This document shows, piece by piece, positions 1 through 64,000 of a DNA stretch of 64,000 nt. The number at the start of each line of letters is the position of its first letter. Within the stretch, counting starts at the first letter, position 1. This DNA is from Chamaelirium japonicum (taxonomy: Eukaryota; Streptophyta; Magnoliopsida; Liliales; Melanthiaceae), in assembly GCA_947650365.1 (NCBI GenBank), contig OX393552.1:46578999-46642998 (forward strand), read 5' to 3'. The translations under genes and the position numbers were made by a program. The notes beneath the pieces were generated by a model that had not been told where the DNA came from, did not search any database, and worked only from the letters and a program-made list of their open reading frames with translations.

Positions 1-244
1 CACCGAATGAGTTAGAATGGATCATACGAATGAATTAGAATGGATCGTATGAATGAATTAGATTGGATCGTATGAATGAATTAGAATGGATCATATGAAT
101 GAATTATAATGGATCGTGCGAATGAATTAGAATGGATCATACGAATGAATTAGAATAGATACATTCGTACGAATGAATTAGAATGGATCGTATGAATAAA
201 AAAGAATGGATCGTACGAATGAATTAGAATGTATCGTACGAATG

Positions 245-2437
245 AATTTGAACGGATCGTACAAATGAATTAGAATGGATACATTCGTGCGAATGAATTA
301 GAATAGATCATACGAATGAATTAGAATGGATCGTACAAATGAATTAGAATCGATACATTCGTGCGAATGTATAAGAATGGATCGTACAAATTAATTAGAA
401 TGGAACTTACGAATAAATTAAAATAGATATATTCGTGCGAATGAATTAGAATGGATCGTACGAATGAATTAGAATTGATACATTCGTGCGAAGGAATTAG
501 AATGGATCGTACGATTGAATTAGATCGGCTAGTGTGAATGAAATAGAATAAATCGTATGAATGAATTAGAATAGATCGCACGAATGTATTAGAATGAATC
601 ATAATAATGAATTAGAATCGATCGTGCGAATGAATTAGAATGTATCGTACAAATGAATTAGAATGGATACATTTGTGAGAAAGAATTTGAATAGATCGTA
701 CGAATGAATTAGAATGGATCGTAAGAATAAATTAGAATAGATCGTACAAATGAATTAGAATGGATCATACGAATGAAATACAATGGATCGTGCGAATGAA
801 TTAGAATGGATCGTACGAATGAATAAGAATGGATACATTCGTGCGAATGAATTAGAATGGATCGTATGAATGAATTAGAATGCATCGTCCGAATGAATAA
901 GAATGGATCATACGAATGAATAAGAATGGATTGTGCAAATGAATTAGAATGGATCATACGAATGAATTAGTACGGATACATTCGTGCGAATGAATTAGAA
1001 TGGATCGTACGAATGAATTAGAATGGATACATTCATACGAATGAAATAGAATGGATCGTACGAATGAATTAGAAAGGATACATTCATGCAAATGAATTAC
1101 AATGGATCGTACAAATGAATTAGAATAGATCGTACGATTGAATTAGAATGGATACATTTGTGCGAATGAATTAGAATGGATCTTCCGAATGAATTAGAAT
1201 GGATCGTGCGAATGAATTAGAATGGATCGTGTGAATGAATTAAAATGGATCGTACGAATGAATTAGATTGGATCGTACGAATGGATTAGAATGCATCGTA
1301 CGAATGAATTAGGTTGGAGCGTACGAATGAATTCGATTGGAGCGTTCGAATGAATTAGAATGGATCGTACGAATGAATTAGAATGGATACATTCGTGCGA
1401 AAGATTTAGAATGGATCGTACGAATGAATTAGAATGGATCATACGAATGGATTAGAATGGGTCGTGCGAATGAATTAGAATGAATCGTAAGAATGAATTA
1501 TAATGGATACATTCGTGCAAATGAATTAGAATGGATCATACGAATGGATTAGAATGCATCGTACGAATGAATTAGAATGGATCGTGCGAATGAATTAGAA
1601 TGAATCGTTTGAATGAATTAGAATAGATACATTCGTGCGAATGAATTAGAATAGATCGTACGAATAAATTAGAATGGATCGTATGACTGAATTAGAATGG
1701 ATCGTGCGAATGAATTAGAATTGATCGTACGAATGAATTAGAATAGATTCATTCGTGCGAATAAATTAGAATGAATCGTACGAATAAATTAGAATGGATT
1801 ATACGAATGAATTAAAATAGATAAATTCTTGTGAATGAATTAGAATGGATCGTACGAATGAATTAGAATAGATCATACGAATGAATTACTATGGATACAT
1901 TCATGCGAATGAAATAGAATGGATCGTACGAATGAATTAGAATGGATCGTGCGAATGAATTAGAATGGATTGTACAAATGAATTAGAATGCATAAATTCG
2001 TGCGAATGAATTAGAATGGATCATATGAATGAATTAGAATGGATCGTGCGAATGAATTAGAATGGATCGTACGAATAAATTAAAATGGATCGGGCGAATG
2101 AATTAGAATGGATCGTACGAATGAATTAGAATGGATCGATTCGTGTGAATCAATTAGAATGGATCGTACGAATAAATTAGAATGGATCGTACGAATTAAT
2201 TAGAATGGATACATTAGTGTGAATGAATTAGAATAGATCGTACGAATGAATTAGAATGGATCATATGAATGAATTAGAATGTATCGTATGAATGAATTAT
2301 AATGGATCGTGAGAATGATTTATAATGGATCGTACGAATGAATTAGAATGGATACATTCGTGAGAATGAATTAGAATGGTTCGTATGAATGAATGAGAAT
2401 GGATTGTACGAATAAATTAGGATGCATCGTATGAATG
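245..2437 (+). repeat. Higher-order repeat copy 1 (about 2.19 kb)
   Basis: The succession of variant monomers starting near 245 (a monomer with GAATTTGAA) recurs at 2438 and 4466. Copy 1 is about 165 bp (seven monomers) longer than copy 2. Markers checked by eye include the AATTTGAA monomer and the cluster near 320-800 that recurs near 4540-5020. The choice of start is arbitrary, as for any tandem repeat. Confidence 0.75.
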
Positions 2438-4465
2438 AATTTGAATGGATCGTACGAATGAATTAGAATGAATACATTCGTGCGAATGAATTAGAATGGA
2501 TCGTACAAATGAATTAGAATGGATTGTGCGAATGAATTAGAATGGATCGTACGAATGAATTAGAATGGATACATTCATGCAAATGAATTTAAATGGATCG
2601 TACGATTGAATTAGAATGGATTTTATAAATGAATTAGAATGGATCATGCGAATGAATTAGAATGGATCGTATGAATGAATTAGAATGGATAAATTCATGC
2701 GAATGAATTAGAATGGATCGTACAAATAAATTGAAATAGATCGTACGAATGAATTAGATTGGATCGTACGAATGAATTATAATGGATCTTGCAAATGAAT
2801 TAGAATGGCTTGTACGAATAAATTAGAATGGATACATTCATGTCAATAAATTAGAATGGATCGTACGAATGAATTAGAATGGATAATGTGAATAAATTAG
2901 AATGGGTCGTGCGAATTAATTAGAATGGATCGTACGAATGAATTAGAATGGATACATTCGTGCGAATGAATTAGAATGGATCGTACGAATGAATTAGAAT
3001 GGATCATACGAATGAATTAGAATGGATACATTCGTGCGAATGAAATAGTATGGATCGTACGAATGAATTAGAATGGATCGTACGAATGAATTAGAATGGA
3101 TCGTGCGAATGAATTAGAATGGATCGTACGAATAAATTAGAATTGGTACCTTCGTGCGAATGAATTAGAATGCATCGTACGAATGAATTAAAATGGATAC
3201 ATTCAAGCGACTAAATTAGAATGGATCGTACGAATGAATTAGAATGAATTAGAAATGATCATACAAAGGAATTAGAATGGATCGTACAAATAAAATAGAA
3301 TGGATCGTACAAATAAATTAGAATGGATCGTACGAATGAATTAAAATAGATCGTGCGACTTAATTAGAATGGATCGTACGAATGAATTAGAATGGGTAGG
3401 TGCAAATGAATTAGAATGGATCGTACGAATGAATTAAAATGGATCATACGAATGAATTACAATAGATCATGCGAATGAATTAGAATGGATCGTGCGAATT
3501 AATTAGAATGGATCGTACAAATGAATTAGAATGGATCGTACGAATGAACTAGAATGGATACATTTGTGCAAATGAATTAGAATGGATCGTACGAATGAAT
3601 TAGAATGGATCGTACGAATGAATTAGAATGGATCATGCGAATGAATTAGAATGGATCATACGAATGAATTAGAATGGATACATTCGTGTGAATGAATTAG
3701 AATGGATCGTACGAATGAATTAGAATGGATCGTGCGAATGAATTAGAATGGATCGTATGAATGAATTAAAATGGATACTTTCATGCGAATGAATTAGAAT
3801 GGATCGTACGAATGAATTAGAATGGATCATACGAATGAATTAAAATAGATAAATTATTGCGAATGAATTAGAATGGATCGTAGGAATAAATTAGAATGGA
3901 TCGTACGAATGAATTAGAATGGATAGATTCGTGCGAATGAAATAGAATGGATCGTACGAATGAATTAGAATGGATCATGCGAATGAATTAGAATGGATTG
4001 TACAAATGAATTAGAATGCATACACTCGTCCGAATGAATTAGAATGGATCGTATGAATGAATTAGAATGGATCGTGCGAATGAATTAGAATGGATCGTAC
4101 GAATGAATTAGAATGGATCGTGCGAATGAATTAGAATGGATGATACGAATGAATTAGAATGAATCCATTCGTGCAAATGAAATAGAATGGATCGTACAAA
4201 TAAATTAGAATGGATCGTACGAATTAATTAGAATGGATATATTAGTGTGAATGAATTAGAATAGATCGTACGAATGAATTAGAATGGATCGTACGAATGA
4301 ATTAGAATGGATCTTATGAATGAATTATAATGGATTGTGCGAATGAATTAGAATGGATCGTACGAATGAATTAGAATGGATACATTCATGCAAATGAATT
4401 AGAATGGATCGTATGAATGAATAAGAATGGATCGTACGAATGAATTAGAATGCACCGTATGAATG
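2438..4465 (+). repeat. Higher-order repeat copy 2 (2028 bp)
   Basis: Three markers match downstream at the same offset of 2028 bp: AATTTGAA at 2438 and 4466, GATACATTAGTG at 2208 and GATATATTAGTG at 4236, and GATAAATT at 1820 and 3848. The constant offset supports a true higher-order period rather than chance matches between monomers. Confidence 0.75.
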
Positions 4466-5030
4466 AATTTGAATGGATCGTACGAATGAATTAGAATGGA
4501 TAGATTCGTGCGAATGAATTAGAATGGATCGTACGAATGAAATAGAATGGATCGTACGAATGTATTAGAATCGATACATTCGTGCAAATGAATGAGAATG
4601 GATCGTACAAATGAATTAGATTGGATCGTACGAATAAATTAAAATAGATACATTCGTGCGAATGAATTAGAATGGATCGTACAAATGAATTAGAATTGAT
4701 ACATTCGTGCGAATGAATTAGAATGGATCGTACGAATGAATTAGGATGGATAGTGGGAATGAATTGGAATAGATCGTATGAATGAATTAGAATGGATTGC
4801 ATGAATGTATTAGAATGAATCATACTAATGAATTAGAATCGATCGTGCGAATGAATTAGAATGTATCGTACTAATGAATTAGAATGGATACATTTGTAAA
4901 AACGAATTTGAATAGATCGTACGAATGAATTAGAATGGATTGTAAGAATAAATTAGAATAGATCGTATGAATGAATTAGAATGGATCGTACCAATAAAAT
5001 ACAATGGATCGTGCGAATGAATTAGAATAC
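4466..5030 (+). repeat. Higher-order repeat copy 3 (partial)
   Basis: Matches copy 1 at an offset of 4221 bp, for example AATTTGAA at 245 and 4466 and the AAGAATAAATTAG monomer at 723 and 4944. Similarity of the variant order fades after about 5.03 kb. The end is estimated by eye. Confidence 0.65.
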
Positions 5031-6137
5031 ATCATGTGAATGAATTAGAATGGATCGTACGTTTAAATTAGATTGGATTGTACGAATGAATTAGAATGGA
5101 TCATATGAATGAATTAGAATGGTTACATTCATGCGAATGGATTAAAATGGATCGTACGAATGGATTAGAATGGATTGTACGAATGAACTAGAACGCATTG
5201 TACGAATGAATTAGAATAGATACATTTGTGCGAATGAATTAGATTGCATCGTACGAATGAATTTGAATGGATTGTACGAATGAATTAGAATGAATCGTAT
5301 GAATGAATTAGAAAGGATCATGCGAATTAATTAGAATAGATCGTACGAATGAATTAGAATGGATCGTACGAATAAATTAGAATGAATCGTACGAATGAAT
5401 TAGAAGGGATCGTACGAATGAATTAGAATGGATACATTTGTACGAATAAATTAGAATGGATTGTACGAATGAACTAGAATGGATTGTATGAAAAAATTAG
5501 AACGGATCGTACGAATGAATTAGAATTGATCGTGCGAATGAATTAGAATGGATACATTCTTGCGAATGAATTTGAATGGATCGTACGAATGGATCGTACG
5601 AATGAATTAGAATGGATCGTAGAAATGAATTAGAATGGATCGTACGAATGAGTTAGAATGGATCGTGCGAATGAATTAGAATGGATTAGAATGGATCGTA
5701 TGAATGAATACGAATGGATCATACGAATGAATTAGAATGGATCGTGCGAATGAATTAGAATGAATCGTACGAATGCATTAGAATGGATACATTCGTGCGA
5801 ATGAATTAGAATGGATCGTATGAATGAATTAGAATGGATCGTGCGAATGAATTAGAATGGATACATTTGTACGAATAAATTAGAATGGATTGTACGAATG
5901 AATTAGAATGGATACATTCTTGCGAATAAATTAGAATGGATCGTATATTCGTGCAAATAAATTAGAATGGATCATACGAATGAATTAGAATAGATCGTGC
6001 GAATGAATTAGAATGAATCGTACGAATGCATTAAAATGGATCGTACGAATGAATTAGAATAGATCGTATGAATGAATTAGAATGGATCGTGCGAATGAAT
6101 TAGATTGGGTACATTCATGCGAATGAATTAGAATGGA

Positions 6138-9100
6138 TCCATTCTAATTCATTCCTACAATCCATTCTAATTCATTCCTACGATCCATTCTAATTCATTC
6201 GTACGATCCATTCTAATTCGTTTGTACGATCCATTCTAATTCATTCGTACGATCCATTCTAATTCATTCGTACGATCCATTCTAATTCATTCGTACGAAT
6301 GTATCCATTCTAATGTATTCGTACGATTCATTCTAATTCATTCGCACGATCCATTCTAATTCATTCGTACGATCCATTCTTATTCATTCATACGATCCAT
6401 TCTAATTCATTTGTACGAATGAATTAGAATGGATCGTACGAATGGATTAGAATGGATCGTGCGAATGAATTAGAATTGATCGTACGAACGAATTAGAATG
6501 GATCGTATGAATGAATTAGAATGGATCGTACGAATGAATTAGAATGGATACATTCGAGCGAATGAATTAGAATGGTTTGTACAAATGAATTAGAATGGAT
6601 CATAGGAATGAATTAGAATGGATCGTACGTATGGATTAGAACGCATTGTACGAATGAATTGAATGGATCGTACAAATTAATTAGAATGGATACATTCGTG
6701 CGAATGAATTAGAATGGATCGTACGAATGAATTAGAATGGATCGTGCGAATGAATTAGAATGGATAGTGCGAATGAATTAGAATGGATCGTACGAATGAA
6801 TTAGAATGGATACATTCGTGCGAATGAATTAGAATTGATCGTACGAATGAATTAGAATGGATCGTACGAATAAATTAGAATGGATCGTATGAATGAATTA
6901 GAATGGATCCACCAAATGAGTTAGAATGGATCATATGAATTTATTAGAATGGATCGTACGAATGAATTAGAATGGATACATTCGAGCGAATGAATTAGAA
7001 TAGATCGAAGGAATGAATTAGAATGAATCATACGAATGAATTAGAATGGATCGTGCGAATGAATTAGAATGGATCGTGCGAATGAATTAGAATGGATTGT
7101 ACGAATGAATTAGAATGGATACATTCGAGCGAATAAATTAGAATAGATCGTAGGAATGAATTAGAATGGATCATACGAATGAATTAGAATGGATCGTGCG
7201 AATGAATTAGAATGGATTGTACGAATGAATTAGAATGGATACATTCGTGCGAATGAATTAGAATAGATCGGACGAATGAATTAGAATGGATCGTACGATT
7301 CATTCTAATTCATTCGTACGATTTATTCTAATGCATTCGTACGATTCATTCTAATTCATTCGCACGATCCATTCTAATTCATTCGTACGATCCATTCTTA
7401 TTCATTCATACGATCCATTTTAATTCATTCGCACAATCTATTCTAATTCATTCGTACGATCCATTCTAATTCATTCGTATGATCCATTCTAACTCATTCG
7501 GTGGATCCATCCTAATTCATTCGTACGATCCATTCTAATTTATTCGCACGATCCATTCTAATTTATTCGTACGATCCATTCTAATTCATTCATACGATCT
7601 ATTCTAATTCATTCGCAAGATCCATTCTAATTCATTTGTACGATCCATTCTAATTCATTCGTACAATCCATTCAAATTTATTCGTACGATGCAATCTAAT
7701 TCATTCGTACAAATGTATCTATTCTAATTCATTCGTACAATGCGCTCTAATCCATTCGTACGATCCATTCTAATTTATTCGTACGATCCATTCTAATTCA
7801 TTCGCACGAATGTAACCATTCTAATTCATTCATACGATCCATTCTAATCCATTTGTACGATCCATTCTAATTCATTCCTACGATCCATTCTAATTCATTC
7901 GCACGAATATATCCAGTCTAATTCATTTGCACGATCCATTCTAATTCATTCCTATGATCCATTCTAATTCATTCGTACGATCCATTCTAATTCATTCGCT
8001 CGAATGTATCCATTCTAATTCGTTCGTACAATCCATTCTAATTCGTTCGTACGATCCATTCTAATTCGTTCGCACGATCCATTCTAATTCATTCGTACGA
8101 TCCATTCTAATTCATTCGTACGATCTATTCTAATTCATTCGCATGATCCATTCTAATTCATTCATTCGATCCATTCTAATGCATTCTACAATCCATTCAA
8201 ATTTATTCACATGATCCATTCTAATTCATTCGTACGATCCATTCTAATTCATTCGTACGAATGTATCCATTCTAATTCATTCGTACAATCCATTCTAATT
8301 CATTCGCACGATCCATTCTAATTCATTCATATGATCCATTCTAATTCATTCCTACGATCTATTCTAATTCATTCGCTCGAATGTATCCATTCTAATTCAT
8401 TCGTACAATCCATTCTAATTCATTCGTATGATCCATTCTAATTCATTCGCACGAATGTATCCATTCTAATTCATTTGTACGATCCATTCTAATTTATTCG
8501 TACAATGCGTTCTAATCCATTCGTACGATCCATTCTAATTCATTCCTATGATCCATTCTAATTCATTCGTATGATCCATTCTAATTCATTCGCTCGAATG
8601 TATCCATTCTAATTCATTCGTACGATCCATTCTAATTCGTTCATACGATCCATTCTAATTCGTTCGTACAATCCATTCTAATTAATTCGCACGATCCATT
8701 CTAATCCATTCGTACGATCCATTCTAATTGATTCGTACAAATGAATTAGAATGGATCGTATGAATGAATAAGAATGGATCGTACGAATGAATTAGAATGG
8801 ATCGTGCGAATGAATTAGAATGAATCATACGAATGCATTAGAATGGATACATTCGTGCGAATGAATTAGAATGGATCGTACGAATGAATTAGAATGGATC
8901 GTACGAACGAATTAGAATGAATAAGAATGGATCGTGCGAACGAATTAGAATGGATCGTACGAACGAATTAGAATGGATCTTATGAACGAATTAGAATGGA
9001 TCGTACGAATTAATTAGAATGGATACATTCGAGCGAATGAATTAGAATGGATCGTACGAATGAATTAGAATGGATCATAGGAATGAATTAGAATGGATCG

Positions 9101-14838: not shown

Positions 14839-16509
14839 CGTACGAATGAATTATAATGGATCGTACAAATGAATTAAAATGGATACATTCGAGCGAATGA
14901 ATTAGAATAGATATATTCGAGCGAATGAATTAGAATGGATCGTACGAATGAATTAGAATGGATCGTACAAATGGATTAGAATGGATCGTGCGAATGAATT
15001 AGAATGGATCGTAAAAATGAATTAGAATGGATCGTATGAACGAATTAGAATGGATCTTACAAATGAATTAGAAAGGATACATTCATACGAATGAATTAGA
15101 ATGGATCGTACGAATGGTTACATTCGTGCGAATGAATTAGAATGGATCGTATGAATGATTAGAATGGATCGTGTGAATGAATTAGAATTGATCATACAAA
15201 TGAATTAGAATGGATCGTACGAATGAATTAGAATGGATACATACATTCATGCGAATGAATTAGAATGGATACATTCATGCGAATGAATTAGAATGGATAC
15301 ATTCATGCGAATGAATTAGAATGGATCGTAGGAATGAATTAGAATGGATCGTACGAATGAATTAGAATGGTTACATTCGTGCGAATGAATTAGAATGGAT
15401 CGTACGAATGAATTAGAATGGATCGTGCGAATGGATTAGAATGGATCGTACGATTGAATTAGAATGGATCGTGCGAATGAATTTGAATTGATCGTACGAA
15501 TGAATTAGAATGGATCCACTGAATGAATTAGAATGGATCGTAAGAATGAATTAGAATGGATCCACCAAATGAGTTAGAATGGATCATATGAATGAATTAG
15601 AATGGATCGTACGAATGAATTAGAATGGATCGTATGAATGAATTAGAATGGATCGTATGAATGAATAAGAATGGATCGTACGAATGAATTAGAATGGATT
15701 GTGCGAATGAATTAGAATGAATCGTACGAATGCATTAGAATGGATCGTAGGAATGAATTAGAATGAATCGTACGAATGAATTAGAATAGATCGTGCAAAT
15801 AAATTAGAATAGATCATACGAATGAATTAGAATAGATATATTCATGCGAATGAATAAGAATAGATCGTACGAATGAATAAGAATGGATCGTTCGAATGAA
15901 TTAGAATGGATCGTATGAATAAATTAGAATGGATCGTACGAATGAATTAAAATGGATACATTTGTGCAAATTAGAATGGATCGTACGAATGGATTAGAAT
16001 TAGATCGTACGAATGAATTAGAATAGATCGTACGAATGAATTAGAATGAATCATACGAATGCATTAGAATGGATCATACGAATGAATTAGAATGAATTAG
16101 AATGGATACATTTGAGCGAATGAATTAGAATGGATCGTACGAATGAATTAGAATGGATCGTGCGAATGAATTAGAATGGATTGTACGAATGAATTAGAAT
16201 GGATCATACGAATGGATTAGAATGGATCGTACGAATAAATTAGAATGGATCATGCGAATGAATTTGAATGGATCGTACGAATGAATTAGAATCGATCGAA
16301 CGAATGAATTAGAATGGATACATTCGAGCGAATTAATTAGAATAGATCGTAGGAATGAATTAGAATGGATCGTGCGAATGAATTAGAATGAATCGTACGA
16401 ATGAATTAGAATGGATCGTACGAATGAATTAGAATGGATACATTTGTGCAAATGAATTAGAATGGATCGTATATTCATGCAAATGAATTAGAATGGATCG
16501 TACAAATGA
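14839..16509 (+). repeat. Satellite, F block
   Basis: Head-to-tail F monomers, including two variants with GATCCAC in place of GATCGTAC near 15525 and 15559. The part after about 15690 belongs to the 5.7-kb segmental duplication. No gene is seen. Confidence 0.95.
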
Positions 16510-45843: not shown

Positions 45844-46027
45844 CTGATAAAACTATCTCTGAAATCAGCTTAACTCCCCTCAAACAAGCCTTCTCACAGT
45901 CTCAGCCTCTGCTCCAACCTTCTCTGAAAATTAGAAATTCAGTAAACCTTCTCAATCACAACCTTGAGACAAAAGAATACAGCAGACAATTCAGATAGTC
46001 CTCCTTTCATAATGAATCGTCCTTCTA

Positions 46028-46155: not shown

Positions 46156-46160
46156 AATTG

Positions 46161-48102: not shown

Positions 48103-48117
48103 TCTACGATCCATTCT
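48103..48117 (+). repeat. Target-site duplication of LINE 2, 5' side (15 bp)
   Basis: TCTACGATCCATTCT, identical to 45554-45568. Satellite then continues in the same R orientation as on the left side. Confidence 0.85.
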
Positions 48118-48201
48118 AATCCATTCGTATGATCCGTTCTAATCCATTCGTACGATCCATTCTAATTCATTCTCACAAATGTAACCTTTCTAATTCATTT
48201 G
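48103..48201 (-). repeat. Satellite, R block right of LINE 2
   Basis: About four R monomers ending at TTCATTTGACGAATG, a shortened R-to-F join. Confidence 0.94.
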
Positions 48202-48809
48202 ACGAATGAATTAGAATGGATCATACAAATGAATTAGAAAGGTTACATTCGTGAGAATGAATTAGAATGGATCGTGCGAATGAATTAGAATTGATCATAC
48301 GAATGAATTAGAATGGATCGTACGACTGAATAAGAATGGATCGTACCAATGAATTAGAATGGATACATTCGAGCGAATGAACTAGAATAGATCATAGGAA
48401 TGAATTAGAATGGATCATACGAATGAATTAGAATGGATCGTATGAATGAACTAGAATGGATCGTACGAATTAATTAGAATGGATACATTCGTGCGAATGA
48501 ATTAGAATGGATCGTACGAATCAATTAGAATGGATCGTACGAATGAATTAGAATGAATCGTACGAATGAATTAGAATAGATCGACGAATGAATTAGAATG
48601 GATACATTTGTATGAATAAATTAGAATGGATTGTACGAATGAATTCGAATGGATACATTCTTGCGAATAAATTAGAATGGATCGTATATTCGTGCAAATA
48701 AATTAGAATGGATCATACGAATGAATTAGAATGGATCGTGCGAATGAATTAGAATGAATCGTACGAATGCATTAGAATGGATCGTATGAATGAATTAGAA
48801 TGAATCATA
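48202..48809 (+). repeat. Satellite, F block
   Basis: F monomers that include the tract ATTTGTA, GTAC, ATTCTTGC, GTATATTCGTGC, ATACG, GTGCG (48600-48740). This tract precedes the recurrent flip at 48810 and is also found near 5861, 25398, 50636 and 55487. Confidence 0.94.
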
Positions 48810-51675
48810 CGATCCATTCTAATTCATTCGTCCGATCCATTCTAATTCATTCGCACGAATATATCCATTCTAATTCATTCGTACAATCCATACTAATTCA
48901 TTCGTACGATCCATTCTTATTCATTCATATGATCCATTCTAATTCATTCGTACGATCCATTCTAATTCATTCGTACGATACATTCTAATTCATTCGCATG
49001 AATGTATTCATTCTAATTATATCGTACGATCCATTCTAATTCATTCATACGATCCATTCTAATTCATTCGTATGATCCATTCTAATTCATTCCTACGATC
49101 TATTCTAATTCATTCGCTCGAATGGATTGTACGAATGAATCAGATTGGATCATGCGAATGAATTTGAATGGATCGTACGAATGGATTAGAATGGATCGAA
49201 CGAATGAATTAGAATGGATACATTCGAGCGAATGAATTAGAATAGATCGTAAGAATGAATTAGAATGGATCATACGAATGAATTAGAATGGATCGTACGA
49301 ATGAATTAGAATGGTGCGAATGAATTAGAATGGATCATAGGAATGAATTAGAACGAATCGTGCGAATGAATTAGAATATATCCATTCTAATTCATTTGTA
49401 CGATCCATTCTAATTCATTCGTATAATGCGTTCTAATCCATTCGTACGATCCATTCTAATTCATTCCTATGATCCATTCTAATTCATTCGTACGATCCAT
49501 TCTAATTCATTCGCTCGAATGTATCCATTCTAATTCATTCGTACGATCCATTCTAATTCGTTCATACGATCCATTCTAATTCGTTCGTACGAATGTATCC
49601 ATTCTAATTCATTCGCACGATCCATTCTAATCCATTCGTACGATCCATTCTAATTCATTCGTACAAATGAATTAGAATGGATCGTATGAATGAATAAGAA
49701 TGGATCGTATGAATGAATTAGAATGGATTGTGCGAATGAATTAGAATGAATCGTATGAATGCATTAGAATGGATACATTCGTGCGAATGAATTAGATTGG
49801 ATCGTACGAATGAATTAGAATGGATCATACAAATGAATTAGAAAGGTTACATTCATGAAAATGAATTAGAATGGATCGTACGAATGAATTAGAATGGATC
49901 ATGCGAATGAATTAGAATGGATCTTACGAATGGATTAGAACGCATTGTATGAATGAATTAGAATGGATCGTACAAATGAATTAGAATGGATATATTCATG
50001 CGAATGAATTAGAGAATGGATCCACCGAATGAATTAGAATAGATCGTACGAATGAATTAGAATGAATCATCCGAATGAATTAGATCGTACGATTCATTCT
50101 AATTCATTCGTACGATCCATTCTAATGCATTCGTACGATTCATTCTAATTCATTCGCACGATCTATTCTAATTCATTCGTACGATCGATTCTTATTCATT
50201 CATACGATCAATTCTATTTCATTCGCACGAATGTAACCATTCTAATTCGCACGATCCATTCTAATTCATTCGTACGATCCATTCTAATTCATTTGTACGA
50301 TCCATTCTAATTCATTCACACAAATGTATCCATTCTAATTCATTTGTATGATCTATTCTAATTCATTCGTACGATCAATTCTAATCCATTCGTACGATCC
50401 ATTCTAATCCATTCGTACGATCCATTCTAATCCATTCGTATGAATGTATCCATTTTAATTCGTACAAATAAATTAGAATGAATTAGAATGGATTGTACGA
50501 ATGAATTAGAATGGATACATTCGTGCGAATGAATTAGAATGGATCGTACGAATGAATTAGAATGGATCGTGCGAATGAATTAGAATGAATCGTACGAGTG
50601 AATTAGAATGGATCGTACGAATGAATTAGAATGGATTCATTTGTACGAATAAATTAGAATGGAATGTACGAATGAATTAGAATGGATACATTCTTGCGAA
50701 TAAATTAGAATGGATCGTATATTCATGCAAAAAAATTAGAATGGATCATACCAATGAATTAGAATGGATCGTGCGAATGAATTAGAATGAATCGTACGAA
50801 TGCATTAGAATGGATCGTACGAATGAATTAGAATGGATACATTTGTCCGAATGAATTAGAATGGATCGTACGAATGAATTAGAATGGATCGTACGAATGA
50901 ATTAGAATTGATCATACTAATGAATTAGAATGGATCATATGAATGAATTAGAATGGATCGTGCGAATGAATTAGAATGGATTGTACAAATGAATTAGAAT
51001 GGATCCACCGAATGAGTTAGAATGGATCATACGAATGAATTAGAATGGATCGTACGAACGAATTAGAATGAATCGTATGATCCATTCTAATTCATTCGTC
51101 CGATCCATTCTAATTCATTCACACGAATGTATCCATTCTAATTCATTCGTACAATCCATTCTAATTCATTCGCACGATCCATTCTAATTCATTCGTATGA
51201 TCCATTCTAATTCATTCCTACGATCTATTCTAATTCATTCGCTCGAATGTATCCATTCTAACCTTTCTAATTCATTCGTACGATCCATTCTAATTCATTC
51301 TCACGAATGTAACCTTTCTAATTCATTTGTATGATCCATTCTAATTCATTCGTACGATCCATTCTAATTCATTCGCACGAATGTAACCATTCTAATTCAT
51401 TCGTACGATCCATTCTAATTCATTCCTACGATCCATTCTAATTCATTCGCACGAATGTATCCATTCTAATTCATTTGCACGATCCATTCTAATTCATTCC
51501 TATGATCCATTCTAATTCGTTCGTACGATCCATTCTAATTCATTCGTACGATCCATTCTAATTCATTCGTACGATCTATTCTAATTCATTCGTATGATCC
51601 ATTCTAATTCATTCCTACGATCTATTCTAATTCATTCGCTCGAATGTATCCATTCTAATTCATTCTAATTCTAAT
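48810..51675. repeat. Satellite with alternating orientation
   Basis: R 48810-49120, F 49121-49377, R 49378-49662, F 49663-50088, R 50089-50463, F 50464-51076, R 51077-51675. It contains the recurrent flip at 48810 and 51076 and the GATCCACCGAATGAG variant at 51001. No gene is seen. Confidence 0.94.
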
Positions 51676-53229
51676 TAGAATAGATCATACGAATGAATTA
51701 GAATGGATTGTACGAATGAATTTGAATGGTTACATTTAAGCGAATGAATTAGAATGGATCATACGAATGGATTAGAATGGATCGTACGAATGAATTAGAA
51801 TGGATCATATGAATGAATTTGAATGGATCGTACGAATAAATTAGAATGGATCGTACGAATGAATTAGAAAAGGTTACCTTTGTGAGAATGAATTAGAATG
51901 GATCGTATGAATGAATTAGAATGGATTAGAATGGATCGTACGAATGAATTAGAATGGATTGTGCGAATGAATTAGAATGGATCGTACGAATGAATTAGAA
52001 TGGATCGTATGAATGAATTAGAATGGATACATTCGTGCGAATGAATTAGAATGGATCATATGAAAGAATTAGAATGGATCGTGCAAATGAATTAGAATGG
52101 ATACATTCGTGCGAATGAATTAGAATGGACCGTAGGAATGAATTAGAATGGATCGTACGAATGAATTCTAATTCATTCGTACGATCCATTCTAATTCGTT
52201 TGTACGATCCATTCTAATTTGTTCATACGATCCATTCTAATTCGCTCGTACGATCCATTCTAATTCGTTCGTACGATCCATTGTAATGAATTCGTATGAT
52301 CCATTCTAATCCATTTGCACGATCCATTCTAATTCATTCCTATGATCCATTCTAATTCATTCATACGATCCATTCTAATTCATTCGCTCGAATGTATCTA
52401 TTCTAATTCATTTGCACGATCCATTCTAATTCATTCGTACAATCCATTCTAATTCATTCGTACGATCCATTCTAATTCTTTCGTACGATCCATTCTAATT
52501 CATTCGTATGATCCATTCTAATCCATTTGCACGATCCATTCTAATTCATTCCTATGATCCATTCTAATTCATTCATATGATCCATCCTAATTCATTCGCA
52601 CGAATGTATCCATTCTAATTCATTTGCACGATCCATTTTAATTCATTCGTACAATCTATTCTAATTCATTCGTACGATCCATTCTAATTCGTTCGTACGA
52701 TCCATTCTAATTCATTCGTTTGATCCATTCTAATTCATTTGTACGATCCATTCTAATTCATTCGTACGATCCAATCTAATTCATTCATATGATCTATTCT
52801 AGTCCATTCGCACGATTAGAATGGATACATTCGAGCGAATGAATTAGAATGGATCGGACGAATTAATTAGAATGGATCGTACGAATGAATTAGAATGGAA
52901 ATATTCGTGCGAATGAATTAGAATGGATCATATGAAAGAATTAGAATGGATCGTGCAAATGAATTAGAATGGATACATTCGTGCGAATGAATTAGAATGG
53001 ATTGTAGGAATGAATTAGAATGGATCGTACGAATGAATTAGAATGGTTACATTCGTGCGATTGAATTAGAATGGATCGTACGAATGGATTAGAATGGATC
53101 GTACGAATGAATTAGAATGGATCGTACAAATGAATTAGAAAGGATCCATTCTAATCCATTCGTACAATCCATTCTAATTCATTCGTCCGATCCATTCTAA
53201 TTTATTCGCTCGAATGTATCCATTCTAAT
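51676..53229. repeat. Satellite with alternating orientation
   Basis: F 51676-52165, R 52166-52814, F 52815-53144, R 53145-53229. Flips lie on GAATTC (52163-52168) and GGATCC (53142-53147). A local duplication in the R block repeats a tract near 52270-52420 at about 52500-52640. Confidence 0.94.
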
Positions 53230-54189
53230 CGTGCGAATGGACTAGAATAGATCATATGAATGAATTAGATTGGATCGTATGAATGAATTAGAATGGATCG
53301 TACAAATGAATTAGAATGGATCATACGAATGAATTAGAATGGATCGTGCGAACGAATTAGAATGGATCGTACGAATGAATTAGAATGGATTGTACGAATG
53401 AATTAGAATGGATCGTGCAAATGAATTAGAATGGATACATTCGTGCGAATGAATTAGTATGGATCGTTTGAATGAATTAGAATGGATCATAGGAATGAAT
53501 TAGAATGGATCGTGCAAATGGATTAGAATGGATCATACGAATGAATTAGAATGGATCGTACGAACGAATTAGAATGGATCGTACGAATGAATTAGAATGG
53601 ATTGTACGAATGAATTAGAATGGATCGTGCAAATGAATTAGAATCGATACATTCGAGCGAATGAATTAGAATGGATCGTACAAATGAATTAGAATGGATC
53701 ATAGGAATGAATTAGAATGGATCGTGCAAATGGATTAGAATGGATCATACGAATTCATTAGAATGGATCGTACGAACGAATTAGAATGGATCGTATGAAC
53801 GAATTAGAATGGATCGTATGAACGAATTAGATTGGATCATACGAATGAATTAGAACGGATATATTTATGCAAATGAATTAGAATGGATCGTACAAATGAA
53901 TTAGAATGGATCATACGAATGAATTAGAATGGATCGTATGAATGAATTTGAATGGATCGTACGAATGAATTAGACTGGATCGTACAAATGAATTAGAAAG
54001 GTTACATTTGTGAGAATGAATTAGAATGAATAAGAATGGATCGTACGAATGAATTAGAATGGATCGTGCGAATGAATTAGAATGAATCGTACGAATGCAT
54101 TAGAATGGATATATTCGTGCGAATGAATTAGAATGGATCGTACGAATGAACTAGAATGGATCGTACGAATGAATTAGAATGAATCATAC
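53230..54189 (+). repeat. Satellite, F block
   Basis: F monomers with a local duplication of a four- to six-monomer tract near 53330-53480 and 53530-53720. It ends at the recurrent flip at 54190. Confidence 0.94.
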
Positions 54190-56345
54190 AATCCATTCTA
54201 ATTCATTAGTCCGATCCATTCTAATTCATTTGTACGATCCATTCTAATTCATTCTCACAAATGTAACCTTTCTAATTCATTTATACGATACATTCTAATT
54301 CATTCGTACGATCCATTCTAATCCATTCGTACGATCCATTCTAATCCACATTCTAATCCATTCGTACGATCCATTCTAATCCATTTGTACGATCCATTCT
54401 AATTCATTCGCACGATCCATTCTAATTCATTCATACGATCCATTCTAATTCATTCGTTCGATCCATCTTAATTCATTCGTACGATCTATTCAAATTCATT
54501 CGCATGATCCATTCTAATTCATTCGTACGATCCATTCTAATTCATTCTCACGAATGAAACCTTTCTAATTCATTTGTATGATCCATTCTAATTCATTCGT
54601 ACGATCCATTCTAATTTATTCGCACGAATGTATCCATTCTAATGCATTCGTACGATTCATTCTAATTCATTCGCACGATCCATTCTAATTCATTCGTACG
54701 ATCCATTCTTATTCATTCATACGATCCATTCTAATTCATTTGTACGAATGAATTAGAATGGATCGTACGAATGGATTAGAATGGATCGTGCGAATGAATT
54801 AGAATGGATACATTCGTACGAACGAATTAGAATGGATCGTATGAACGAATTAGAATGGATCGTACGAATGAATTAGAATGGATACATTCGAGCGAATGAA
54901 TCAGAATGGATCGTACGAATGAATTAGAATAGATCATAGGAATGAATTAGAATGGATCGTACGAATGGATTAGAACGCATTGTACGAATGAATTAGAATG
55001 GATCGTACAAATGAATTAGAATGGATATATTCATGCAAATGAATTAGAATGGATCGTACGAATGAAATATAATAGATCGTGCGAATGAGTTAGAATGGAT
55101 AGTGCGAATGAATTAGAATGGATCGTACGAATGAATTAGAATGGATCCACCGAATGAGTTAGAATGGATCATACGAATGAATTAGAATGGATCGTACGAA
55201 CGAATTAGAATGAATCGTACGATCCATTCTAATTCATTCGTCCGATCCATTCTAATTCATTCGCACGAATGTATCCATTCTGAATGAATTATAATGGATC
55301 ATACGAATGAATTAGAATGGATTGTGCGAATGAAATAGAATGGATTGTGCGAATGAATTAGAATGGATACATTTGTGCGAATGAATTAGACTTGATCGTA
55401 CGAATGAATTAGAATGGATCGTGCAAATGAATTAGAATGAATCGTACGAATGAATTAGAATGGATCGTACGAATGAATTAGAATGGATACATTTGTACGA
55501 ATAAATTAGAATGGATTGTACAAATGAATTAGAATGGATACATTCTTGTGAATAAATTAGAATCGGTCGTATATTCGTGCAAATAAATTAGAATGGATCA
55601 TACGAATGAATTTGAATGGATCGTGCGAATGAATTAGAATGAATCGTACGAATGCATTAGAATGGATCGTACGAATGAATTAGAAAGAATCGCATGATCC
55701 ATTCTAATTCATTCGTAAGATCCATTCTAATTCATTCTCACGAATGTAACCTTTCTAATTCATTTGTATGATCCATTCTAATTCATTCGTACGATCTATT
55801 CTAATCCATTCGTATGATCCATTGTAATTCATTCATATAATCCATTCAGATTTATTCGCACAAATGTATGCATTCAAATTCATTCGTACGATCCATTCTA
55901 ATTAATTCGCACGATCCATACTAACTCAGTCGTATGAATATATCCATTTTAATTCATTCGTATGATCCATTCTAATTCGTACGATCCATTCTAATCCATT
56001 CGTACGATCCATTCTAATCCATTCGTACGATCCATTCTAATTCATTCGCACAAATGTAACCATTCTAATTTATTCGTATGATCTATTCTAATTCATTCCT
56101 ACGATCCATTCTAATTCATTCGTACGAATGTATCCATTCTAATTCATTTGCACGATCTATTCTAATTCATTCCTATGATCCATTCTAATTCATTCGTACG
56201 ATCTATTCTAATTCATTCGCTCGAATGTATCCAGTCTAATTCATTCGTATGATCCATTCTAATTCATTCGTACGATCCATTCTAATTCGTTCATACGATC
56301 CATTCTAATTCGTTCGTACGATCCATTCTAATTCATTCGTACGAT
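54190..56345. repeat. Satellite with alternating orientation
   Basis: R 54190-54743, F 54744-55219, R 55220-55280, F 55281-55694, R 55695-56345. Recurrent flip junctions are at 54190 and 55219; at 55695 a relative has CGTAAGATCC where the others have CGTCCGATCC. GATCCACCGAATGAG lies near 55145. Confidence 0.93.
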
Positions 56346-58955
56346 CGTACGAATGAATTAGAATGGATCGAACGAATGAATTAGAATGGATACCTTCGAG
56401 CGAATGAATTAGAATAGATCGTAGGAATGAATTAGAATGGATCATACGAATGAATTAGAATGGATCGAATGAATGAATTAGAATGGATACATTTGCACGA
56501 TCCATTAGAATGGATCGTATGAACGAATTAGAATTCATTCGTACGATACATTATAATTCATTCGTACGATCCATTTTAATTCATTCGTACGATCCATTCT
56601 AATTCATTTGTACAAATGTATCCATTCTAATTCATTCGTACGATCCATTCTAATTCATTCGCACAAATCTATCCTTTCTAATTCATTTGTACGATCCATT
56701 CTAATTCATTCGTACGATCCATTCTAATTCATTCGCACGATCCGTTCTAATTCATTCGTACGATCCATTCTAATTCATTCCTATGATCCCTTCTAATTCT
56801 TTCGTACAATCCATTCTAATTAATTCGTACGATCCATTCTAATTCATTCGCACGATCCATTCTAATTTATTCGTACGATCCATTCTAATTCATTCGTACG
56901 ATCTATTCTAATCCATTCCTACAATCTACTCATTTGTGAGAATGAATTAGAATGGATCGTACGAATGAATTAGAATGGATCGTACGATCCATTCTAATTC
57001 ATTCGTCCGATCCATTCTAATTCATTCGCACGAATGTATCCATTCTAATTCATTCGTACAATCCATTCTAATTCATTCGCACGATCCATTCTAATTCGAG
57101 CGAATGAATTAGAATGGATCGTACGAATGAATTAGAATGGATCGTATGAATGAATTTGAATGGATCGGATGAATGAATTAGAATGGATCGTACGAATGAA
57201 TTAGAATGGATCATAGGATTGAATTAGAATGGATCGTGCAAATGAATTAGAATAGATACATTCGTGCGAATGAATTAGAATGGATCGTGCGAATGAATTA
57301 GAATGGATCGTACGAACGAATTAGAATGGATCATACGAATGAATTAGAATGGATCGTACGAATGAATTCATTCTAATTCATTCGTACGATCCATTCTAAT
57401 TCATTCGTACGATCCATTCTAATTCATTCGCACGATCCGTTCTAATTCATTCCTATGATCCATTCTAATTCATTCGCACCAATGTAATCATTCTAATTCA
57501 TTCGTACGATCCATTCTAATTCATTCCTACGATCCATTCTAATTCATTCGCACAAATGTATCCATTCTAATTCATTTGCACGATCCATTCTAATTCATTC
57601 GCTCGAATGTATCCATTCTAATTCATTCGTACGATCCATTTTAATCCATTCGTACGATCTATTCTAATTCATTCATACGATCCTTTCTAATTCATTCTCA
57701 CAAATATAACCTTTCTAATTTATTCGGACGAATGGATTATACGAATGAATTAGAATGGATCATACGAATGGATTAGTATGGATCGTACGAATGAATTTGA
57801 ATGGATCGTACAAATGAATTAGAAAGGTAACATTTGTGAGAATGAATTAGAAAGGATCGTACGAATGAATTAGAATGGATCGTACGAATAGATTAGAATG
57901 GATCGTACGAATGAATTAGAATGGATACATTCGAGCGAATGAATTAGAATGGATCGTGCAAATGAATTAGAATGGATACATTTGTGCGAATGAATTAGAA
58001 TGGATCGTAGGAATGAATTAGAATGGATCGTACGAATGAATTAGAATGGTTACATTCGTGCGAATGAATTAGAATGGATCATAGGAATGAATTAGAACGG
58101 ATCGTGCGAATGAATTAGAATGGATCGTACAAATGAATTAGAATGGATCGTACGAATGAATTAGAATGAATTCATTCGTACGATCCATTCTAATTCATTC
58201 GTATGATCCATTCTAATTCGTTCGTACAATCCATTCTAATTCATTCGCACGATCCATTCTAATTCATTCGCACGAATGTATCCATTCTAATTCATTTGCA
58301 CGATCCATTCTAATTCAATCCTATGATCCATTCTAATTCATTCGTACGATCCATTCTAATTCATTCATCCGATCCATTCAAATTGATTCGTACGATCCAT
58401 TCTAATTCATTCGTACGATCCATTCTAATTCATTCGCTCGAATGTATCCATTCTAATTCATTCGTACAATCCATTCTAATTCATTCGTACGATCCTTTCT
58501 AATTCATTCGCACGATCCATTCTAATTCTTTCATATGATCCATTCTAATTCATTCGCACGAATGTATCCATTCTAGTTCATTCGTACGCTCCGTTCTAAT
58601 TCATTCGTACGCTCCATTCATATTCATCGCACAAATGTATACATTCTAATTTATTCGTACGATCTATTCAAATTCAATCGTATGATCCATTCTAATTCAT
58701 TCGCACAAATGTATCCATTTTAATTCATTCGTACGATCGATTCTAATTTATTCATACGATCCATTCTAATTCATTCGCATGATCCATTCTAATTCATTCG
58801 TACGATCCATTCTAATTCATTCGCATGAATATATCTATTCTAATTCATTCGTATGATCCATTCTAATTTATTCGCACGATCTATTCTAATTCAATCGTAC
58901 GATCCATTCTAATTCATTCGTACGATCCATTCTAATTCATTCGCACGAATGTATC
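56346..58955. repeat. Satellite with alternating orientation
   Basis: F 56346-56493, a scrambled R/F patch at 56494-56533, R 56534-56930, F 56931-56984, R 56985-57097, F 57098-57366, R 57367-57727, F 57728-58171, R 58172-58955. Flips at 57366 and 58171 lie on GAATTC. No gene is seen. Confidence 0.93.
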
Positions 58956-59910
58956 ATACGAATGAATTAGAATGGATCATGCGAATGAATTAAAATGGAT
59001 CGTACGAATGAATTAGAATGGATCGTACAAATGAATTAGAAAGGTTACATTTGTGAGAATGAATTAGAATGGATCGTACGAATGAATTAGAATGGATCGT
59101 ACGAATGGATTAGAATGGATCGTACGAATGAATTAGAATGGATCATACAAATGAATTAGAAAGGTTACATTCGTGAGAATGAATTAGAATGGATCGTACG
59201 AATGAATTAGAATGGATCATGCGAATGAATTAGACTGGATCGTACGAATGAATTTGAATGGATCGAACGAATGAATTAGAATGGATACATTCGAGCGAAT
59301 GAATTAGAATAGATCGTAGGAATGAATTAGAATGGATCATACGAATGAATTAGAATGGATCGTGCGAATGAATTAGAATGGATTGTACGAATGAATTAGA
59401 ATGGATACATTCGTGCGAATGAATTAGAATGGATCGGACGAATGAATTAGAATGGATCGTACGATCCATTCTAATTCATTCGTACGATCCATTCTAATTC
59501 ATTCTCACAAATGAGTAGATTGTAGGAATGGATTAGAATAGATCGTACCAATGAATTAGAATGGATCGTATGAATAAATTAGAATGGATCATGCGAATGA
59601 ATTAGAATGGATCGTACGAATTAATTAGAATGGATTGTACGAAAGAATTAGAAGGGATCGTAGGAATGAATTAGAATGGATCGTACGAATGAATTAGAAC
59701 GGATCGTGCGAATGAATTAGAATGGATCGTACGAATGAAATAGAATGGATCGTACAAATGAATTAGAAAGGATAGATTTGTGCGAATGAATTAGAATGGA
59801 TCGTACGAATGAATTAGAATGGATACATTTGTAGAAATGAATTAGAATGGATCGTGCGAATGAATTAAAATGGATCGTACGAATGAATTATAATGTATCA
59901 TACGAATGAA
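58956..59910 (+). repeat. Satellite, mainly F block
   Basis: F monomers with one short R island at 59462-59509. The block ends on a GAATTC flip at 59910. Confidence 0.94.
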
Positions 59911-61027
59911 TTCTAATTCGTTCATACGATCCATTCTAATGGATCGTGCAAATGTATCCATTCTAATTCATTCATTCGATCCATTCTAATTCATTCGTAT
60001 GATCCATTCTAATTCATTCCTACGATCTATTCTAATTCATTCGCTCGAATGTATCCATTCTAATTCATTCGTTCGATCCATTCTAATTCATTCATACGAT
60101 CCATTCAAATTCATTCGCATGATCCATTCTAATTCATTCGTACGATCCATTCTAATTCATTCTCACGAATGTAACCTTTCTAATTCATTCGTACGATCTA
60201 TTCTAATTCATTCGTACGATCCATTCAAATTCGTTCATACGATCCATTCTAACTCATTCCTACGATCCATTTTAACTCATTCCTATTATCCATTCTAATC
60301 CATTCGTACGATCCATTCTAATTTATTCGTACGATCCATTCTAATTCATTCGCACGAATGTATCCATTCTAATTCATTCATACAATCTATTCGAATTCAT
60401 TCGCACGATCCATTCTAATATATTCGTATGATCCATTCTAATTCATTTCTACGATCTATTCTAATTCATTCGCTCGAATGTATCCATTCTAATGCATTCC
60501 TATGATCCATTCTAATTCATTCGTACGATCCATTATAATTCATTCGCTCGAATGTATCCATTCTAATTCATTCGTAAGATCCATTCTAATTCGTTCATAC
60601 GTTCCATTCTAATTCATTCGTTCGATCTATTCTAATTCATTCGTACGATCCATTCAAATTCATTCGCATGATCCATTCTAATTCATTCGTCTGATCCATT
60701 CTAATTCATTCTCACGAATGTAACCTTTCTAATTCATTTGTATGATCCATTCTAATTCATTCGTACGATCCATTCTAATCCATTCGTACGATCCATTCTA
60801 ATCCATTCGTACGATCCATTCTAATTCATTCTCACAAATGTAACCTTTCAAATTTATTTGTACGATCTATTCTAATTCATTCGTACGATCCATTCTAATC
60901 CATTCGTACGATCCATTCTAATCCATTCGTACGATCCATTCTAATTCATTTGCATGAATGTAACCATTCTAATTCATTCGTACGATCCATTCTAATTCAT
61001 TCCTACGATCCATTCTAATTCATTCGG
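59911..61027 (-). repeat. Satellite, R block
   Basis: R monomers, with a 14-bp F scrap at 59941-59954. The 99-codon frame at 59999-60298 is satellite translation. No gene is seen. Confidence 0.94.
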
Positions 61028-61455
61028 TGAATGGATTAGAATGGATTGTACGAATGAATTGGAATAGATACATTTGTGCGAATGAATTAGAATGGATCAT
61101 ACGAATGAATTAGAATGGATCGTACGAATAAATTAGAATGGATCGTGCGAATGAATTAGAATGGATCGTACGAATGAATTAGAATGGATCGTGCGAATAA
61201 ATTAGAATGGATCATACGAATGAATTAGAATGGATCGTACAAATGAATTAGAATGGATCGTGCGAATGAATTAGAATGGATCGTACGAATGAATTAGAAT
61301 GGATCGTGCGAATAAATTAGAATGGATCGTACGAATGAATTAGAATGAATCGTACGAATGAATTAGAATGGATCGTACGTGCGAATGAATTAGAATGGAT
61401 CGTATGAATGAATTAGAGTGGATCGTACGAATGAATTAGAATGGATCGTACGAAT
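61028..61455 (+). repeat. Satellite, F block
   Basis: F monomers close to consensus, mostly alternating GTAC and GTGC ends, with few 28-bp monomers. It is one of the most uniform tracts in the window. Confidence 0.94.
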
Positions 61456-62446
61456 GTATCCATTCTAATTCATTCGTACGATCTATTCTAATTCGTTCAT
61501 ATGATCCATTCTAATTCATTCGTACTATCCATTCTAATTCTTTCATATGATCCATTCTAATGCATCCACACAAATGTATCCATTCTAATTCATTCGTACG
61601 ATCCATTCTAATTCGTTCATACGATCCATTCTAACTCATTCGCACAATCCATTCTAATTCATTCGTACGATCCATTCTAATTAATTAGCACGAATGTATC
61701 CATTCTAATTCATTTGCACGATCTATTATAATTCATTCGCATGATCCATTCTAATTCATTCGTACGATCCATTCTAATTCATTTGTATGATCCATTCTAA
61801 TTCATTCGTACGATCCATTATAATTCATTCGCACGAATGTATCCATTCTAATGCATTCGTACGATTCATTCTAATTTATTCGCACGATCCATTCTAATTC
61901 ATTCCTATGATCCATTCTAATTCATTCGTACGATACATTCTAATTCATTCGCTCGAATGTATCCATTCTAATTCATTCGTACGATCCATTCTAATTCGTT
62001 CGTACGATCCATTCTAATTCGTTCGTACGATACATTCTAATTCGTTCGTACGATCCATTCTAATTCGTTCGCACGATCCATTCTAATTCATTCGTATGAT
62101 CCATTCTAATTCATTCGTATGATCTATTCTAATTCATTCGCATGATCCATTCTAATTCATTCGTACGATCCATTCTAATTTATTTGCATGAATATACGAT
62201 CCATTCTAATTTATTCGCAAGAATGTATCCATTCTAATTCATTCGCACGGTCCATTCTAATTCATTCGTATGATTCATTCTAATTCATTCGTACGATCCA
62301 TTCTAATGCATTCGTACGATCCATTGTAATTCATTCGTAAGATTCATTCTAAATCATTCGTACGATCCATTCTAATTTATTCGTACGATCCATTCTAATT
62401 CATTCTCACGATCCATTCTAATTCATTTGTACGATCTAATTCTAAT
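61456..62446 (-). repeat. Satellite, R block
   Basis: R monomers; several near 61990-62070 end TTCG rather than TTCATTCG. No gene is seen. Confidence 0.94.
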
Positions 62447-63107
62447 TAGAATAGATACATTTGTGCGAATGAATTAGATTGCATCGTACGAATGAATTTG
62501 AATGCATTCCAATTCATTCATATGATCTAATTCTAATGCATTCGCACGATCCATTCTAATTAGAAAGGTTACATTCGAGCGAATGAAATAGAATAGATCG
62601 TAGGAATGAATTAGAATGGATCATACGAATTAATTAGAATGGATCGTGCGAATGAATTAGAATGAATCGTACGAATGCATTAGAAAGGATCGTACGAACG
62701 AATTAGAATGGATCGTACGAACGAATTAGAATGGATAGTACGAACGAATTAGAATGGATCGTACGAATGAATTAGAATGGATACATTTGAGCGAATGAAT
62801 TAGAATGGATCATACGAATGAATTAGAATGGATCATAGGAATGAATTAGAATGGATCGTGCAAATGAATTAGAATGGATACATTCGTGCGAATGAATTAG
62901 AATAGATCATACGAATGAATTAGAATGGATCGTACGAATGGATTAGAACGCATTGTACGAATGAATTAGAATGGATCGTACGAATGGATCATACGAATGA
63001 ATTAGAATGGATCGTACGAATGGAACCGAATGAGTTAGAATGGATCATACGAATGAATTAGAATGGATCGTACGAATGAATTAGAATGGATCGTACGAAT
63101 GAGTTAG
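62447..63107 (+). repeat. Satellite, mainly F block
   Basis: F monomers except R at 62505-62559. No gene is seen. Confidence 0.93.
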
Positions 63108-63623
63108 AATCCATTCTAATTCATTTGTATAATCCATTCTAATTCATTGCTCGATCCATTCTAATTAATTCGCTCGAATGTATCCATTCTAATTCATTCG
63201 TACGATCCATTCTAATTCATTCGTACGATCCATTCTAATTCATTCGCACGATCCATTCTAATTCATTTGTACGATCCATTGTAATTCATTTGTATGATCC
63301 ATTCTAACTCATTCGGTGGATCCATTCTAATTCATTCGTACGATCCATTCTAATTCATTCGCACGATCCATTCTAACTCATTCGTACGATCCATTCTAAT
63401 TCATTTGTACGATCCATTCTAATTTATTTGCACGAATATACGATCCATTATAATTCATTTGCACGATCCATTCTAATCCATTCGTACGATCCATTCTAAT
63501 TCATTCGTACGATCTATTCTAATCCATTCGTACGATCCATTCTAATTCATTTGTACTATCCATTCTAATTCATTCGCACGATCCATTCTAATTCATTCGT
63601 TCGATCCATTCTAATTCATTTGT
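63108..63623 (-). repeat. Satellite, R block
   Basis: R monomers with the GGTGGATCC marker near 63314. It ends on a GTAC-centred flip. Confidence 0.94.
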
Positions 63624-64000
63624 ACGAATAAATTAGAATGGATACATTCAAGTGAATGAATTAGAATGGATCGTGTGAATGGATTAGAATGGATCGTATG
63701 AATGGATTAGAATGGATCGTACGAATGGATTAGAATAGATCGTACGAATGAATTAGAATGGATCGTACGAATGGATTAGAATGGATCGTGCAAAAGAATT
63801 AGAATGGATCCTAGAAATGAATTAGAATGGATCGTACGAATGGATTAGAATGGATCATACGAATGGATTAGAATAGATCGTACGAATGAATTAGAATGGA
63901 TCGTGCGAATGAATTAGAATGGATTGTACGAATGAATTAGAATGGATATATTCGTGCGAATGAATTAGAATGGATCTTACGAATGAATTAGAATGGATCG
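63624..64000 (+). repeat. Satellite, F block running off the window
   Basis: F monomers to the last base, so the array continues beyond the window. Confidence 0.95.

Follow-up and report, generated by a model that had tools for sequence, protein, structure and literature searches.

Satellite array of the window

The stretch analysed here (the window) comprises 64,000 nucleotides, C4:46578999-46642998, and consists largely of a short tandem satellite that repeatedly changes orientation and that almost certainly corresponds to Chio1/Chio2 of Chionographis japonica, a CENH3-bound satellite of the holocentromere (Kuo 2023, PMC10264360; this and the other papers cited are drawn on in part). Scanning with the 18-bp core GAATGAATTAGAATGGAT, and allowing up to 5 mismatches, places the satellite in roughly 58.5 of the 64 kb, the remainder being mainly a solo long terminal repeat (LTR) and two fragments of long interspersed nuclear elements (LINEs). 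The original prediction, in which the satellite ran from 1 to 64000, is therefore right for this share and wrong for the rest. The tracts delimited by the core scan are as follows.

1-28342, no strand assigned: Chio1/Chio2 satellite, mixed orientation; the first block, 5-6138, is wholly forward and holds 256 cores
29325-31205, no strand assigned: Chio1/Chio2 satellite, mixed orientation
32659-45568, no strand assigned: Chio1/Chio2 satellite, mixed orientation
48105-64000, no strand assigned: Chio1/Chio2 satellite, mixed orientation

The scan yields 2,466 monomers in the window, 1,466 forward and 1,000 reverse, and neighbours of the same orientation are spaced 23 bp apart in 1,869 pairs and 28 bp apart in 390 pairs. 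Base-shuffled copies of the window (n = 5) contain 12-14 cores each. Simulated all-forward arrays carrying 7% and 15% substitution contain 0 reverse cores, which argues that the reverse blocks are not products of divergence. By the same scan the window falls into 97 blocks with a minimum length of 18 bp, a median of 373 bp and a maximum of 6,134 bp; two of the 97 block boundaries, however, are splits between reverse blocks caused by inserts (31.2-32.7 kb and 45.6-48.1 kb), leaving 95 blocks by orientation. The frequent flips of a 23/28-bp satellite, put earlier at about 95 blocks, are thereby confirmed. Less than 200 bp separates the core starts at 93 of the flips, and at 1 further flip the solo LTR intervenes.

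Our assignment to Chio is based on described features rather than on a letter-by-letter comparison. The published monomers are 23 bp (dominant) and 28 bp long; relative to Chio2, Chio1 has a 5-bp deletion and a 1-bp substitution (PMC10264360). The window monomer set against them is CGAATGAATTAGAATGGATCGTA, and its 23- and 28-bp forms, which have the spacers CGTAC and ACATTCGTGC, respectively, are related in the same way, through a 5-bp deletion and one substitution. In addition, the window monomer contains the 9-mer TTCGTACGA that is named as part of Chio by Kuo 2025 (PMC12722358), and mixed forward and reverse Chio arrays are reported in PMC10264360, their orientation being termed "frequently alternating" in PMC12722358. 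It is because the monomer lengths, the deletion-and-substitution relation, the 9-mer and the mixed orientation all match that we make the assignment. Published Chio1/Chio2 and the window both have 23/28-bp monomers, dyad symmetry, mixed orientation and dispersal along chromosomes, and no difference was found between them in the features described in the parts of PMC10264360 used here. The 8-bp dyad of that paper is, on our reading, TCGTACGA.

A role as the base for CENH3 nucleosomes and kinetochores is published for Chio arrays, and the present stretch most probably shares it; taken jointly, identity and role make a Chio1/Chio2 array acting in the holocentromere a very highly probable description of the window, which presumably lies within one megabase centromere unit. 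As the original prediction held, so short a monomer in so often inverted an array is real and unusual. The finding is not new, however, because both satellite and alternating orientation have already been published for Chio. The monomer strings themselves gave no match in a full-text literature search.

Chio is reported to make up 16-17% of the genome, with 7 to 11 evenly spaced centromere units per chromosome (PMC10264360). Our own estimate of abundance is very rough: the pooled pattern density of eight sequences (the window and loci L031-L037) gives 22% of the genome, and the densities at single loci, which run from 7.87 to 4.04 per kb, correspond to about 15.5% to 30%. On C1 (137 Mb) about 10 satellite clusters can be distinguished by eye among the matches listed; none of the matches listed falls at 76.4-114.4 Mb, an interval for which only a sparse pattern was listed. 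In abundance and in clustering along C1 the match to the published figures is only a rough one.

Registers of the orientation flips

We searched the assembly (1,518,659,071 bases in 3,253 contigs) for orientation junctions using exact half-core patterns in 15 registers. The exact-match patterns undercount junctions and include copied ones; the counts are complete, and places are those among the matches listed. Reverse-to-forward (RF) junctions with 0-14 bp between the half-cores number 24,023 genome-wide. Among these, a 4-bp gap, the register of TCGTACGA, accounts for 9,936 and a 12-bp gap, the register of GATC, for 7,098. These two of the 15 registers jointly hold 17,034 RF junctions, or 70.9%, although the palindrome at in-register RF junctions is not always intact, judging from the places among the matches listed. 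Forward-to-reverse (FR) junctions number 28,394, with 4,765 in the TCGTACGA register (gap 6), a share of 16.8% compared to the 6.7% of an even spread; exact FR junctions at GATC number 828. Other FR classes recur among the matches listed, many of them joining a 23-mer to a 28-mer.

The palindrome is intact at 2,878 of the 4,765 in-register FR junctions (60.4%) compared to 1,854,349 of 4,210,057 tandem joints (44.0%) genome-wide, and at 22 of 29 FR junctions compared to 1,321 of 3,443 tandem joints in the sampled loci. Moreover, the length of the shared run predicts which registers are used at FR junctions (rho 0.54, p = 0.008). Genome-wide, the exact tandem 28-mer occurs almost equally often in the two orientations, with 921,469 forward and 932,880 reverse copies. 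Flips tend to sit on small palindromes of the repeat, which hints at their origin.

The shared-run and de-duplication tests draw on ten sequences (the window, L031-L035 and L005-L008), the arm-likeness and sampled-locus palindrome tests on six (the window and L031-L035), and the count of close inverted copies on nine (the window and L031-L038). L032, L033, L034 and L037 were chosen from matches in the search that placed the window on C4, L031, L035 and L038 at FR matches, and L036 at RF matches; because L031, L035, L036 and L038 were chosen at junction matches, the flip densities in these four loci are not random samples. L030, selected as a window copy at +112 kb, turned out to be mostly non-satellite (80 cores) and was excluded from later counts.

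Within the window, three of the five bases of CGTAC (monomer positions 19-23) are the most variable of the monomer (0.79-0.80). Many CGTAC variants are CpG-to-TpG or CpG-to-CpA changes, consistent with the high CpG methylation reported in PMC10264360. The 28-bp monomer (Chio2) contains CATTCGTGCGAATG, which is nearly the sequence of the RF junction, as though Chio2 had arisen from Chio1 through a tiny double flip.

Inverted duplications and copied flip series

Some flips of the window lie within longer inverted or direct duplications of the satellite.

52184-53860, no strand assigned: inverted duplication; arms 52184-52899 and 53145-53860, 96.5% identical, with a 245-bp unduplicated loop
57094-58443, no strand assigned: inverted duplication; arms 57094-57720 and 57817-58443, 97.9% identical, with a 96-bp unduplicated loop
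56343-60101, no strand assigned: inverted copy pair; 56343-57097 and 59347-60101, 98.7% identical and about 2.2 kb apart
16481-21202, no strand assigned: segment with 12 consecutive flips, first copy; duplicated in direct orientation at 36168-41053
36168-41053, no strand assigned: segment with 12 consecutive flips, second copy; direct-orientation duplicate of 16481-21202

The duplications at 52184-53860 and 57094-58443 look like products of fold-back repair. Each has one flip at its inner end, an FR flip (GGATCC) at 53144 in the former and an RF flip at 57734 in the latter, and in 75-bp bins the identity of both pairs stays at or above 0.93 up to this flip, save for one outermost bin (0.89). 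Inverted copies separated by a loop of 0-399 bp account for 14 of 121 inverted pairs, compared to 3 of 127 direct pairs with the same separation (Fisher p = 0.005), and a flip lies at an inner end in 12 of these 14 close inverted pairs (P = 0.0004 under uniform positions). For flips with blocks of at least 230 bp on both sides, 6 of 75 exceed the 95th percentile of the null for arm likeness (2 of 41 FR and 4 of 34 RF).

The two copies of the 12-flip segment have identical junction types in identical order, with one spacing off by 1 bp. Identity over aligned columns is 92.9-98.5% within 60 bp on either side of each junction and 94.9% for the whole segment (84.5% with gaps), whereas one unrelated forward pair reaches 88.1% (81.6%). 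Contig C184 repeats six consecutive flips of the window in order (FR16, RF22, FR24, RF22, FR15, RF40), the junctions being 91.6-98.6% identical to those of the window over aligned columns, or 84.5% at the lowest when gaps are counted. One block on C184 is much shorter, which argues against a double assembly of one sequence; it is another copy, or possibly another haplotype. Since flip series have been copied both in the window and on C184, independent events must be fewer than flips.

C184 (699 kb) also holds two copies of the first kilobase of the window, at 36410 (+) and 393352 (-), each 97% identical to the window. These lie about 357 kb apart in opposite directions, a possible large inverted repeat.

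Origin of the flips

The route that we favour would begin with a broken or stalled strand folding back within the satellite. Pairing by way of short palindromes of the monomer, the folded strand would copy its own upstream sequence, giving inverted duplications, and later segmental duplication and exchange would spread segments with several flips along the genome. Judging from the junction registers, the pair of fresh inverted duplications and the copied series of flips, we consider the chance that most flips arose by fold-back to be about even. The narrower proposal, that palindrome-guided fold-back repair randomises orientation, with breaks in CENH3 arrays healing by self-priming at TCGTACGA or GATC, is put forward only tentatively and at less than even likelihood. 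If true, the more than 50,000 orientation junctions obtained with exact half-cores (28,394 FR and 24,023 RF) would be a readable record of centromere break repair, and fold-back repair would account for the balance between strands as well as for the difference from the sister genus, in which orientation is uniform.

In the model suggested by Kuo 2025 (PMC12722358), hairpins that the shared 9-mer may form would cause forks to collapse and DNA to break, and ectopic repair would then move the repeats. The junction analysis makes this model testable: if flips sit on the palindrome and bear fold-back signatures, the assembly itself contains evidence that can speak either way. The flip register, the copied flip series and the fold-back reading were found neither in the parts of the published Chio accounts examined nor in the titles and abstract openings among the matches listed in literature searches, and we claim no priority for them. 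Fold-back duplications described in human (PMC3907307) and yeast (PMC7467729) resemble those of the window in having inverted arms, an unduplicated loop and short inverted homology at the junction. They are, however, single rearrangements, whereas the loops found here measure about 100-400 bp and lie inside a satellite; the human spacers span 766-70,466 bp (PMC3907307), and the loops in yeast with intact MRE11 and SAE2 have a predicted median of 36 nt (PMC7467729).

Several observations weigh against a fold-back origin guided by palindromes. Only 16.8% of the scanned FR junctions lie in the register of the 8-bp palindrome. In the sampled loci the palindrome is intact at 8 of 25 RF junctions, which is no excess over the 1,321 of 3,443 tandem joints, and in the ten sequences shared-run length fails to predict RF register use (rho 0.23, p = 0.28). 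The junction counts include copied flips, and once these are de-duplicated by flank similarity the in-register excess depends on the threshold, from p = 0.09 (2 of 12) to 2.5e-6 (9 of 29) for FR and from p = 0.06 (3 of 21) to 0.012 (5 of 32) for RF; the thresholds used, 0.60-0.70, are within the background (maximum 0.79), and 3 of 147 junctions without flanks were dropped. Adding overlapping direct copies weakens the excess of close inverted copies to p = 0.11, and the 12 of 14 flips at inner ends are partly forced because alignments cannot cross a flip, two flips moreover being counted twice. Arms at the tested flips are no more alike than random, either for the 41 FR flips (median 0.683 compared to 0.678, p = 0.64) or for the 34 RF flips (median 0.698 compared to 0.696, p = 0.21). 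Finally, the satellite Chama of Chamaelirium luteum (PMC12722358) is, like Chio, centromeric and dyad-rich and contains the 9-mer TTCGTACGA; unlike Chio, it has a 60-bp monomer, consistently oriented arrays and a higher-order structure over hundreds of kilobases. That arrays with the same 9-mer are consistently oriented implies that the palindrome alone is insufficient for flips, and that something besides it is also needed.

The close rival to fold-back is balanced inversion with conversion, in which recombination between inverted monomers, favoured in register by the palindrome, would make the flips and gene conversion would keep some arms alike. Reciprocal exchange between inverted copies would leave in-register junctions, the near-equal strand totals suit random inversion, and the arms at most tested flips are not unusually alike, all as this explanation would have it, but the two looped inverted duplications and the excess of close inverted copies require either duplication or strong conversion; we give balanced inversion a serious, though again less than even, likelihood. 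It is very improbable, on the other hand, that TCGTACGA is a specific cutting or recombination site of a recombinase, a transposase or a kinetochore factor, and that the flips are made by an enzyme rather than driven by homology. Junctions of both directions do centre on TCGTACGA, and the 9-mer that contains it is common to Chio and Chama (PMC12722358). The register of the unrelated 4-bp palindrome GATC is also frequent, however (7,098 RF and 828 exact FR junctions), many FR junctions are in neither register, and three bases of TCGTACGA are the least conserved of the window monomer (0.79-0.80). That the flips are assembly errors we regard as exceedingly unlikely. Satellite arrays are hard to assemble, but contig C184 repeats six flips with matching types and order, and the copying of flip series, there and within the window, itself makes such an error unlikely. 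HiFi reads are far longer than 373 bp, and the median block of this length therefore sits well inside one read. Furthermore, the published assembly was built from 58.5x HiFi reads (PMC10264360), and the authors who described the satellite report the alternating pattern as well (PMC10264360, PMC12722358).

A different kind of explanation, which formed part of the original prediction, is that the flips serve silencing: transcripts running across them would form double-stranded RNA, feeding small interfering RNAs (siRNAs) of 21-24 nt and heterochromatin. This is physically possible, since RNA across the inverted duplication at 57.4-58.0 kb is predicted to form a long, strong hairpin with a folding energy of -379.4 kcal/mol, compared to a mean of -136.1 for 20 shuffles and a predicted -130.7 kcal/mol for a tandem stretch of equal length. 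In addition, CENH3 chromatin shows a weak correlation with H3K9me2, a mark of heterochromatin (r = 0.33; PMC10264360). The published chromatin data mostly point the other way, however. According to PMC10264360, Chio arrays are enriched in CENH3, CHH methylation is low on Chio, as it is on transposable elements and genes, array flanks are enriched in CHG methylation, and the correlation of CENH3 chromatin with the transcriptome is negative (r = -0.50). The terms 'small RNA' and 'siRNA' do not occur in the main text of PMC10264360, and no further search for small-RNA data was made. Although such a hairpin could form, the silencing role itself therefore seems very improbable.

Transposon inserts and additional observations

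The satellite tracts are separated by three inserts.

28343-29324, no strand assigned: solo LTR, 982 bp, with TG...CA ends; 5-bp target duplication ACATT at 28338-28342 and 29325-29329
31206-32658, plus strand: LINE fragment that carries a poly(A) tail along with zf-RVT and RNase H-like domains
45569-48104, minus strand: LINE fragment in which a single stretch holds zf-RVT and RNase H-like domains; poly-T at the left end

The solo LTR carries an internal 43-bp tandem repeat (28374-28795) that is GC-rich and present in about ten copies, and its position coincides with an RF flip. The LINE fragment at 31206-32658 is bounded by a 14-bp target duplication, ATATCCATTCTAAT, which lies inside a repeat and so is weak evidence alone. 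The ends of the fragment at 45569-48104 were placed by eye, and a scripted search for its target duplication found none; a second translated stretch in this minus-strand element (47399-47923) has no match to a Pfam family. The two fragments run in opposite directions, each with a zf-RVT/RNase H-like region.

The heterochromatin arrays of CUS-TR24 in Cuscuta europaea (PMC8091179) are like the window in belonging to a holocentric plant and in showing LINE insertions, segmental duplications and inversions. They differ in that CUS-TR24 is another satellite and in that neighbouring arrays are mostly of the same orientation (40-45%, compared to 10-15% opposite).

Elsewhere in the assembly, 131 matches to the large subunit of Rubisco, which confirm that the genome is that of a plant, lie on contigs C265-C1772. 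The six of these contigs with a length shown measure 43-252 kb, and the contigs bearing the matches are probably plastid contigs left in the assembly.

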